A DNA stretch of 48,202 nt from the NCBI GenBank assembly GCA_947259335.1, contig CAMYMQ010000030.1, forward strand, positions 1 through 48,202. Direction: 5' to 3'. A program made the translations under genes and the position numbers. The notes beneath the pieces are model-generated. The model was given only the letters and a program-made list of their open reading frames with translations. It was not told the DNA's origin and did not search any database. Positions 44,321 to 48,202 of this stretch are shown here, piece by piece; position 1 is the stretch's first letter; each line of letters opens with the position of its first letter. This stretch comes from an uncultured Alphaproteobacteria bacterium. GTDB lineage: Bacteria > Pseudomonadota > Alphaproteobacteria > Bin65.

Positions 44321-44410
44321 TGGCGGATGGGGTGGGATTCGAACCCACGAGACGCTTGCACGCCTGCCGGTTTTCAAGACCGGTGCCTTCAACCGCTCGG
44401 CCACCCATCC
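44321..44410 (-). tRNA. tRNA-Ser(UGA), class II, CCA encoded
   Basis: Reverse complement GGATGGGTGGCCGAGCGGTTGAAGGCACCGGTCTTGAAAACCGGCAGG...GTGGGTTCGAATCCCACCCCATCCGCCA; anticodon loop CTTGAAA, long variable arm, acceptor GGATGGG/CCCATCC, G73. Confidence 0.96.
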
Positions 44411-44572: not shown

Positions 44573-44881
44573 TTACCTGCTGTCAGGAAGGTCCCGTCGA
44601 CAGAACCGACAAACCGTTGCTTGTGGTAGAATCATTTCAGCGCAATATGGACATGCTATGCGCTTTTCGGCCTCGGTTACATCTGCCGACATCCGGCCGT
44701 CTTGCTCAACCGGGCGATTGGTAAACGACCACACCAATGCTGCAACCCAGCCCAGAAATGTCCAGCCGAGAAGAAGATTAAGAGTAAAGATCGCGCCATA
44801 ATTGTGGTGGTCGCGTGCACCTGCGACAATGCTTGGAAGGAAATACGCGATCAGAAGGAGGATGATTAGGAAGAAGTCCAT
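44573..44881 (-). CDS. Superinfection-immunity (Imm_superinfect)-like membrane protein with C-terminal zinc ribbon
   Basis: MDFFLIILLLIAYFLPSIVAGARDHHNYGAIFTLNLLLGWTFLGWVAALVWSF matches the Imm_superinfect pattern; CPYCAEMILPQATVCRFCRRDL zinc ribbon; start at internal ATG 44881. Confidence 0.82.
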   Translation of the reverse strand: MDFFLIILLLIAYFLPSIVAGARDHHNYGAIFTLNLLLGWTFLGWVAALVWSFTNRPVEQDGRMSADVTEAEKRIACPYCAEMILPQATVCRFCRRDLPDSR

Positions 44882-45124
44882 TGCGTTCTGGTCGTTGCAC
44901 CGCGGCACTTCGGTTGGAACATCCCACGACGGATGCGATCTGGTTGTATTTATCAAACATTTTCGAAACTTTCGATGCTCAATGCAGTGCGCTCAATCTC
45001 GCCCTTCGTCCTCGTTGTGGGTGGGCAGACATCTGACGAACCATCTAAGAAGCCCGGCATTTTATTGACTTGATTGTAACGATCTGGGCTTAACTTCCGT
45101 CCTGTCACCGAGGGGTCGGGAGAC

Positions 45125-46510
45125 ATGGAAGACTGGCTTTCCCAAATCGAAGCCCACACGGGCCCGCGCTACCTTGCGATCGCCGATGCCATCGACGACG
45201 CCGTTCGGCGTGGCCAGCTCGGAACGGGCGAAAAGCTGCCGCCGCAGCGTGCGCTGGCCCGCCGCCTGGGCATCACGGTCGGCACGGTCACCCGCGCCTA
45301 TGCCGAGGCCGAGCGGCGCGGACTGGTCGCCGGCCAAGTGGGGCGGGGGACCTTTGTCGCCGACCGATCGGCGGCTGTCACCCCGACCGCGAGCGTGTTG
45401 TGGCCGGAGGGCGGCGAGGCCGACAGGTCGGGTCCCATCGATCTGGCCTCCGACAGTCCCGTGGTTGGCTTCGACGACGCGGAACTGGCGGGAAGTCTCC
45501 AGTCCTACGCCGAGACCGGCGGCTTTCGGGCGCTGCTCTCGGGCGCGGGCGGCGGGCCCAGTCCGTCCGAGGCGGCCGCCCTTGCCGCCTGGCACGCCGA
45601 CCTCAAGGACGCTCCGGACGCGCAGATCCTGCCGACCAATGGCGGCGACGGTGTACTGGTGGCCCTGCTGAAGACCCTGGCCCCGGCGAGGGGCACGGTG
45701 CTGGTCGAGGCCCTGGCAGGGCGGCCGGAGCGCTCCGCCCTCGACTATCTGGGCCTGCGCGCGAGCCCGGTGCAGATCGACGACGAGGGGATCATTCCCG
45801 AATCGCTCGAATTGGCCGCCTGGTCGAGCGGTGCCGGCATCCTTGTGTGCACTCCCGGTCTCCACGATCCGACCACGGCTACGCTGTCGGCCGAACGGCG
45901 CGCGGCGATCGCCGACATCGCGGAGCGTTTCGACCTGACCCTCGTCGAACTGGAAGGTCAGGCGCGGCTGCTCGACCGGCCGTTGCCGCCACTCACGGCG
46001 TTCGCGCCGGAGCGTACGGTCTATGTCGCCAGCCTGGCCTCGATCTTGGCGCCCTGGCTGGCGCTCGGCTATGTGGCGGCGCCGGAACCGCTGGCGGGCC
46101 GGATCGAAGACGGTGTTGCCCGGTCCGGTGTCGGGGCGCCGGCGCTGACCCGGGGCATCGCCGCCAGGTGGGTCGAGGATCGCTTCGCCCATAGCCTTCT
46201 GTCGCTTCAGCGCACCGAGGCCCGCTGGCGGGGCCGCCTCGCGAGATCGGTCCTGTCCGAGCATGCCTTTGCCGTACGCCAGGGCGGCCTGCGAGCCTGG
46301 GTCCGACCGCAGCGGCCGGACGGCTTCGATATTCCGGACCTGGCGGACCGGGCGTTGGCGGCCGGGGTGACGATCGTTCCCGCGGGCGCCTTCGAGATGC
46401 GTCGGGGCAGTCCGCCTGCGGCCTTCCGCCTGTCGCTCGGCGCCTGCGGCGGCCCAGCGCGGTTGCGTCAGGGGCTCGATACCTTGCTTTCCCTGTTCGA
46501 CGATCGTTGA
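45125..46510 (+). CDS. MocR-like GntR-family regulator with (degenerate) aminotransferase domain
   Basis: N-terminal wHTH GPRYLAIADAIDDAVRRGQLGTGEKLPPQRALARRLGITVGTVTRAYAEAERRGLV; C-terminal fold type I-like domain ending in VTIVPAGAFE. Confidence 0.88.
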   Translation: MEDWLSQIEAHTGPRYLAIADAIDDAVRRGQLGTGEKLPPQRALARRLGITVGTVTRAYAEAERRGLVAGQVGRGTFVADRSAAVTPTASVLWPEGGEADRSGPIDLASDSPVVGFDDAELAGSLQSYAETGGFRALLSGAGGGPSPSEAAALAAWHADLKDAPDAQILPTNGGDGVLVALLKTLAPARGTVLVEALAGRPERSALDYLGLRASPVQIDDEGIIPESLELAAWSSGAGILVCTPGLHDPTTATLSAERRAAIADIAERFDLTLVELEGQARLLDRPLPPLTAFAPERTVYVASLASILAPWLALGYVAAPEPLAGRIEDGVARSGVGAPALTRGIAARWVEDRFAHSLLSLQRTEARWRGRLARSVLSEHAFAVRQGGLRAWVRPQRPDGFDIPDLADRALAAGVTIVPAGAFEMRRGSPPAAFRLSLGACGGPARLRQGLDTLLSLFDDR

Positions 46511-46543: not shown

Positions 46544-47332
46544 ATGGGGTTCTATCTCTCCAAGCTCGCCGGCTTGCTGGCCGATCCGATCAACCTGATC
46601 CTGCTTCTGTTCGGGATCGGCGTCGTGGCGCTCTGGTTCGGCCGCCGCAGGTTCGGGGGCTGGCTGGTGTCGATCGCCTTCCTACTCGCGATCGTGCCCA
46701 CCGTCCTGCCGGCGGGGCCCTGGTTGTTGCGGGCACTCGAGAACCGGTTTCCGTCTACTTCCCTGTCCTCGCCGCCGACCGGAATCATCGTGCTCGGCGG
46801 GTCGATGCAGCCGGGCCTGGCCGAGGACCGCCATGCCTTGGCGGTCAACGGCAACATCGAGCGGCTGATCGTGTTCGCGGAGCTGGCGCGCCAATTTCCC
46901 GAGGCCAAACTTGTCTATTCCGGCGGCACGGGCAGCCTGCTCGAGCCGGGTCTCCGCGAGGCGGACGCGGCAGCGCAGTTCCTTCACCGGCTCGGCGTCG
47001 ATCCGTCGCGCGTGCTGTTCGAGAGGAACTCGCGGAATACCTTCGAGAATGCAGTGCTGACCCGGCAGCGCGTTTTACCGGCCACCGGCGACCGGTGGCT
47101 GCTGGTGACCTCCGCCCGTCACATGCCCCGGGCTGTCGGGGCGTTTCGGCAGGCCGGCTGGACCGTCGACGCCTTCCCCGTCGACTACCGTACCCGCCGC
47201 GCCCTTAAGCCATGGAGAAACCTGCATTTCAGCGCCAGGCTGTCGGTTCTTGCCGCAGCGCTGCGGGAGTGGGTGGGGCTCGCCTTCTACTATGCCACCG
47301 GCAGGTCATCGGCGCTGTTTCCGGCGCCGTAG
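46544..47332 (+). CDS. YdcF/ElyC-like DUF218 membrane protein
   Basis: N-terminal TM segments; GIIVLGGSMQPGLAEDRHALAVNGNIERLIVFAELAR, LVYSGGTGS, ERNSRNTFENA, LLVTSARHMPRAV. Confidence 0.92.
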   Translation: MGFYLSKLAGLLADPINLILLLFGIGVVALWFGRRRFGGWLVSIAFLLAIVPTVLPAGPWLLRALENRFPSTSLSSPPTGIIVLGGSMQPGLAEDRHALAVNGNIERLIVFAELARQFPEAKLVYSGGTGSLLEPGLREADAAAQFLHRLGVDPSRVLFERNSRNTFENAVLTRQRVLPATGDRWLLVTSARHMPRAVGAFRQAGWTVDAFPVDYRTRRALKPWRNLHFSARLSVLAAALREWVGLAFYYATGRSSALFPAP

Positions 47333-47527
47333 AGCGACTGAATTTTCGGGAAGTCTTCACAAAAGGAACTGGTTGATCGCCTAATAAAACTATTCGATAA
47401 TACCTCAAGTCCCAGACGAGGGGATGAAGCCGAGAAGTAAAAACGTAAAGCAGACGACTGTCCCGGGCTTGGACTCCTTGTCATGCATTTAGGCGCCCGA
47501 TGTATTTGGTGCCGGGGGAATGGGGGA

Positions 47528-48202
47528 ATGAAGAAAATCCGCGCAATCATGCCCGCCATGGCGATCCTTGCGGGAACGGTCGGCGTCCTATCCGGATGCG
47601 CCTACAACACCGACGATCCGATGGCGATGGAGGGCAGGCCCTACAAGCCCTACATCGTCGGCTCGCCGTATCAGATCAACGGCAAATGGTACCGCCCGCG
47701 GGAGGACTTCTCCTACGACCGGGTCGGTGTCGCGTCGTGGTATGGCCCCGGCTTCGACGGCAAGCGCACCGCCAACGGCGAAACTTATGACATGGACCTG
47801 TTGACGGCGGCGCATCCGACCCTGCCGATGCCGACCCTGGTCAGCGTCAGGAACCTGGAGAACGGCCGCAGCGTCACGGTGCGGATCAATGACCGCGGGC
47901 CGTTCCACGGCAACCGTATCATCGACCTGTCGCGCCGCGCCGCCGAGGAACTCGGCATCAGGCGCGACGGCACCGCGCGGGTTCGGGTACAGGTCCTGAG
48001 GACCGCGAGCCTGCGCCTGAAGCGCAAGGCGCTGGCGGAACTCTACCGCATCGAGGAGATCGAACGCCGGCAGGAGGTCGCCCAGCAGATCCGCAAAAAG
48101 GAGACCGGCCGCAACGCCGCGGCCACACTCGCGGATATCGCGCCCGCATCGGCGCCGGCGCCCGGACGCGTGCCGTCCAGGCCGCGGGTCACGTCGGTGC
48201 CG
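47528..48202 (+). CDS. rlpA: RlpA-like septal ring lytic transglycosylase lipoprotein, 3' truncated by the window
   Basis: ATG at 47528 after GGGGGAATGGGGG; MKKIRAIMPAMAILAGTVGVLSGC lipobox; GVASWYGPGFDGKRTANGETYDMDLLTAAHPTLPMPTLVSVRNLENGRSVTVRINDRGPFHGNRIIDLSRRAAEELG; frame open to window end, absent from ORF track. Confidence 0.95.
   Translation, partial: MKKIRAIMPAMAILAGTVGVLSGCAYNTDDPMAMEGRPYKPYIVGSPYQINGKWYRPREDFSYDRVGVASWYGPGFDGKRTANGETYDMDLLTAAHPTLPMPTLVSVRNLENGRSVTVRINDRGPFHGNRIIDLSRRAAEELGIRRDGTARVRVQVLRTASLRLKRKALAELYRIEEIERRQEVAQQIRKKETGRNAAATLADIAPASAPAPGRVPSRPRVTSVP

Follow-up and report, generated by a model that had tools for sequence, protein, structure and literature searches.

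A MocR-type regulator with an erased PLP site in an uncultured alphaproteobacterium

The PLP site of GabR, with Lys312 and Asp279, is described as conserved across all MocR clusters (PMC6677901), and the Lys302-PLP linkage of EnuR is invariant across the 278 examined EnuR proteins (PMC8739950). The locus described here raises the question of what a MocR-type regulator can be once that site is gone. The window, a 48,202-nucleotide stretch of DNA from an uncultured Alphaproteobacteria bacterium (contig CAMYMQ010000030.1 of assembly GCA_947259335.1), contains a regulator gene (Table 1) that an earlier note made from the letters alone had read as MocR-like, with serine in place of the Schiff-base lysine and ELEG in place of the Asp/Tyr motif.

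Table 1. Positions in the window of the regulator gene, its domains and PLP-site residues, and the adjacent features; homologue counts refer to the alignment of the regulator with 151 homologues.
Feature	Positions	Strand	Remarks
MocR-type regulator gene, erased PLP site	45125-46510	+	ATG start, 461 aa
GntR-type wHTH, residues 15-80	45167-45364	+	PF00392; conserved columns all kept
Aminotransferase-fold (fold type I) domain, about residues 105-461	45437-46507	+	Profile, structure and fold matches
Gly199 (GGG)	45719-45721	+	Column of the PLP-stacking aromatic, Tyr/Phe/Trp in 138/151
Asp248 (GAT)	45866-45868	+	Column of the NPT-motif Asn, conserved in 135/151
Leu276 (CTG)	45950-45952	+	Column of the pyridine-nitrogen Asp in 148/151, Asn in 3
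Gln279 (CAG)	45959-45961	+	Column of the Tyr/Phe of EDDxY in 133/151
Ser306 (TCG)	46040-46042	+	Column of the Schiff-base Lys in 151/151
Ala313 (GCG)	46061-46063	+	Column of the phosphate-binding Arg in 144/151
Arg435 (CGC), retained	46427-46429	+	Substrate/effector-carboxylate Arg position, Arg in 150/151
ElyC/DUF218 (ydcF-like) gene	46544-47332	+	PF02698, NF007794; 33 bp downstream of the regulator
Divergent intergenic region	44882-45124	.	Half-site-like ATTGTAACGATC at 45073; operator copy not significant

Architecture of the regulator and the residues of its PLP site

A possible ribosome-binding site, GAGGGG, lies at 45110-45115, ahead of the regulator gene. Profile searches bear out the MocR-like identity. 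The GntR model PF00392 covers residues 16 to 78 (E 9.1e-14, Pfam), and the best full-length NCBIfam match is the EhuR/EnuR MocR model NF052286, at 313.1 bits against a curated cut-off of 480 bits. The C-terminal part of the protein matches PLP-dependent aminotransferases with solved structures, and the Pfam model Aminotran_1_2 gave no match at E 0.01. AlphaFold2 monomer models calculated from three to four input sequences are of moderate confidence (pLDDT 59, pTM 0.48), and their top Foldseek matches are PdxR (7zla) and GabR (4mgr), each over both domains with a probability of 1.00. These fold matches support the overall MocR architecture in models that are too weak for pocket detail. EnuR/EhuR-like regulators are the closest family. 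The ectoine-utilisation MocRs EnuR, EhuR and EutR (NF052286) share the GntR wHTH and the aminotransferase-fold domain with the regulator over its full length; the regulator differs from them in having no equivalent of the Lys302-PLP linkage, in scoring below the cut-off of their model, and in having no ectoine genes among the neighbours examined. At the sequence level the protein is thus a MocR by architecture that lacks the defining cofactor features, namely the Schiff-base Lys, the pyridine Asp and the phosphate Arg.

The two replacements reported earlier are both present. The codon at the Schiff-base position is TCG, encoding Ser306 within VYVASLASILAPWLALGY (residues 299-316), and the place of the pyridine Asp is taken by Leu276, second in ELEG within VELEGQARL (residues 274-282). 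When the regulator is aligned pairwise with MppQ, a PLP enzyme of solved structure, SLASILAPWLALG falls on SFSKTLGPGLRLG and VELEGQA on VEDDAYT; relative to GabR, Lys312 and Asp279 are replaced by Ser and Leu. PLP contacts were assigned to alignment columns from the literature on GabR and aspartate aminotransferase (PMC6677901) together with general knowledge of fold type I proteins. The regulator is the sole sequence in this alignment without the Schiff-base Lys, and since the 151 homologues, largely drawn from genome samples of the class and the phylum, were picked by similarity to the regulator, the invariance of the lysine describes the EnuR-like part of the MocR family rather than all MocRs. 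The protein has three lysines, at residues 37, 161 and 183, so that its C-terminal 278 residues hold no substitute, and the alignment places no other lysine in the Schiff-base position; such a lysine would, according to the earlier note, have overturned its reading.

The damage to the site is wider than the lysine and aspartate first reported. In addition to Ala313, Asp248, Gly199 and Gln279, conserved residues of the effector side are replaced (Tyr by Gly140 and Arg by Ala150), and bulky or charged newcomers occupy once-conserved columns (Trp311 and Arg353 each for Gly, and Arg390 for His). The glycine-rich loop is partly retained and keeps Gly173. Some PLP-fold proteins in which the lysine has been replaced still employ the cofactor, and persistence of the fold and of part of this loop would be compatible with PLP or PMP being held non-covalently. 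We nevertheless regard retention of a B6 vitamer as very unlikely, given that the pyridine Asp, phosphate Arg, stacking aromatic, Asn and Lys are all lost and no recognised PLP contact is left.

Distribution of the losses and placement among homologues

Column conservation was counted over 147 homologues. The regulator keeps 23 of the 23 wHTH columns conserved at 80% or more, where the median of the other sequences is 0.91. In the aminotransferase domain, 27 of 40 non-PLP columns at this threshold are kept; the median for the others is 0.92, and one homologue only scores lower. None of the PLP-shell columns is kept, whether the threshold is at least 80% (0/5) or at least 70% (0/8). Large hydrophobic core positions of the same domain are preserved at 50 of 55, inside the range of the homologues. 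Judging by these counts the loss of the PLP site is selective, not general. That covalent PLP binding has been lost while the predicted fold is kept is well supported by the agreement of alignment, lysine count, domain-wise conservation and fold search, and retention of the aminotransferase fold, as claimed in the earlier note, is borne out by the domain-wise conservation, the core positions and the PdxR and GabR matches.

The same counts bear on whether the gene is simply at an early stage of decay, with a dispensable product, an aminotransferase domain that is drifting, and a frame that is intact merely because the process is recent. The loss of 13 of the 40 strongly conserved non-PLP positions would fit such a history, as would occurrence in one genome on a long branch with no orthologue found and no clear operator of its own. 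However, general decay would not be expected to remove every PLP position while the rest is held, with the wHTH columns complete and nearly all core hydrophobic positions in place. The frame is open and used as a native gene would be: codon usage resembles that of the neighbouring genes in the regulator frame only (0.34 per codon, with -0.03 and -0.41 for the two alternative frames), and third-position GC is 0.83. In a crude simulation of unconstrained drift that started from a lysine-bearing paralogue, 27% of the runs still had an open frame at 90% identity, 5% at 70% and 1% at 36%. The open frame, the intact hydrophobic core and this simulation together make an old pseudogene unlikely, and we consider early decay improbable as well.

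The search for orthologues above 40% identity gave none in the organism's own genome, in the genus (1 genome), in the 11 genomes that make up both family and order, or in the overlapping samples of the class (385 genomes), phylum (399) and relatives (386). None was found either in the orders of the two best matches, in viral contigs, in a scan of close relatives in GTDB r220 (84,980 species) or in plasmids (tblastn). Scanned with profiles of narrower alignments, viral contigs yielded four weak relatives, of which one could be used for modelling. No lysine-less homologue was present among the homologue sequences inspected, and the suggestion that orthologues might share the loss therefore found no support, as no orthologue was recovered and every homologue keeps the lysine. 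The regulator's end branch in a tree of 152 proteins is 1.62 long, against a median of 0.42, and has no close sister; such a branch is as expected after release from PLP constraint. The large clade in which it is placed, a weakly supported position, also includes the lysine-bearing paralogue of the same genome, a 461-residue protein encoded at C402 with 36% identity to the regulator.

Neighbouring genes and the promoter

Downstream of the regulator the gene order is conserved. The elyC gene, possibly co-transcribed with the regulator, is followed by rlpA (named from its translation) within 46544-48202, and the elyC-rlpA order is common to the sister genera, in which elyC identity is 47-48% and apparent dacA and tmk genes come next. 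A MocR gene upstream of elyC is absent in the sister genera and present in this genome only, and so the regulator is probably a lineage-specific addition at a conserved cell-envelope cluster. This shared gene order also speaks against the contig being a contaminant or the sequence an artefact of assembly or sequencing. The regulator is known from one draft genome, which is 75.6% complete with 3.1% contamination, and an error of this kind has to be weighed for that reason; however, each of the TCG, CTG and GCG codons in the Lys, Asp and Arg columns differs by two or more bases from the standard codons of the residue it replaces, and all lie in one unbroken frame, so base-calling errors are no explanation, and we judge an artefact of any kind to be extremely unlikely.

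Ectoine genes are absent among the neighbours examined, the immediate ones being elyC, rlpA and, divergent from the regulator, a gene at 44573-44956 (minus strand, probable start near 44881) for a small superinfection-immunity-like membrane protein (PF14373). The latter ends in a CPYCAE...CRFC motif that resembles a zinc ribbon, and a tRNA-Ser gene (anticodon TGA) lies at 44321-44410 on the minus strand.

Within the class, EnuR-like MocR genes (L046, L047, L055, L074, L062 and L002 among others) share an upstream palindromic box resembling ATTGTATNGATACAAT, which scores above 5 bits in 38 of 40 thinned upstream regions and above 15 in many. In the regulator's own promoter a copy of this family box seemed to be present at 45073 (TTGTAACGATC), and by weight matrix the best score for the homologues' operator is 7.6 bits (P 0.15), which is not above chance. 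Autoregulation through the family operator is therefore not claimed. The lack of a significant copy also counts against reading the protein as a constitutive DNA binder, whose DNA binding is predicted from conservation of the wHTH. The sole perfect family box in the draft genome lies upstream of the paralogue, at C402:7191-7204 (ATTGTATCGATCCAAA), which gives rise to the idea that the regulator might cross-regulate this paralogue. The paralogue (L002, L188) stands beside divergent genes that read as FMN-binding/PaiB-like and PhzF-like proteins, and its locus resembles the PdxQ regulons of PMC5320631.

Possible action without the cofactor

Because essentially every PLP-holding residue has been lost, the regulator probably works without cofactor, and we infer that PLP is absent from the protein. 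With the site gone an internal aldimine could not form, and so the regulator should be blind both to PLP and to amine effectors. The fold-type-I aminotransferase domain would become a cofactor-free scaffold for dimerisation and positioning, with the dimer, head-to-tail in MocR regulators, presumably kept, while the wHTH would still bind DNA in a ligand-insensitive manner. After these changes the protein would bind DNA constitutively, most likely as a repressor or as a competitor. A fold-type-I homologue that has lost its PLP lysine and keeps the fold as a structural partner is the SPTLC1 subunit of serine palmitoyltransferase, which differs in being an enzyme subunit and not a transcription factor. 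A closer comparison is the Lys302His variant of EnuR, a MocR that dimerises via its aminotransferase domain; the variant cannot take up PLP and is a constitutive repressor (PMC8739950). The likeness lies in a MocR that is unable to incorporate PLP, and the difference in a single engineered change as opposed to a whole site erased in nature. In BioL, another MocR, changing the Lys to Ala de-represses the target (PMC12915131), and since repression is lost there the direction in which the loss of PLP acts is unpredictable from homology. Taken together, we favor with roughly even confidence the reading of the regulator as a MocR-derived, cofactor-blind factor that binds DNA constitutively and uses its aminotransferase domain as a dimerisation scaffold.

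A second possibility, in line with the PLP-independent ligand sensing that the earlier note named beside a constitutive dimerisation domain, is that the emptied cleft binds a new ligand non-covalently, anchored by Arg435, and that this ligand switches DNA binding. Arg435 is the usual carboxylate anchor and is kept, the fold core persists, and the conserved columns now occupied by Trp311, Arg353 and Arg390 look rebuilt and not simply randomised. Against such a sensor, most other residues of the effector side are gone, including those at positions 140, 150 and 390; there are no neighbouring metabolic genes that hint at a ligand, and there is no set of orthologues that shows a conserved new pocket. 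We therefore hold a PLP-independent sensor to be clearly less probable than the constitutive DNA binder, though a more serious contender than gene decay.

MocR regulators are described as PLP-dependent, and a literature search that extended to papers other than the main MocR reviews yielded no account of a naturally lysine-less MocR. The regulator described here would be a natural member of the family in which the whole PLP site is erased and the DNA-binding half is untouched. If this is true, an aminotransferase domain can persist for architecture alone or serve another ligand, and under the sensor alternative evolution can free a PLP-dependent sensor from its cofactor. On either reading the regulator offers a natural test of the contribution that PLP makes to dimerisation and DNA binding.
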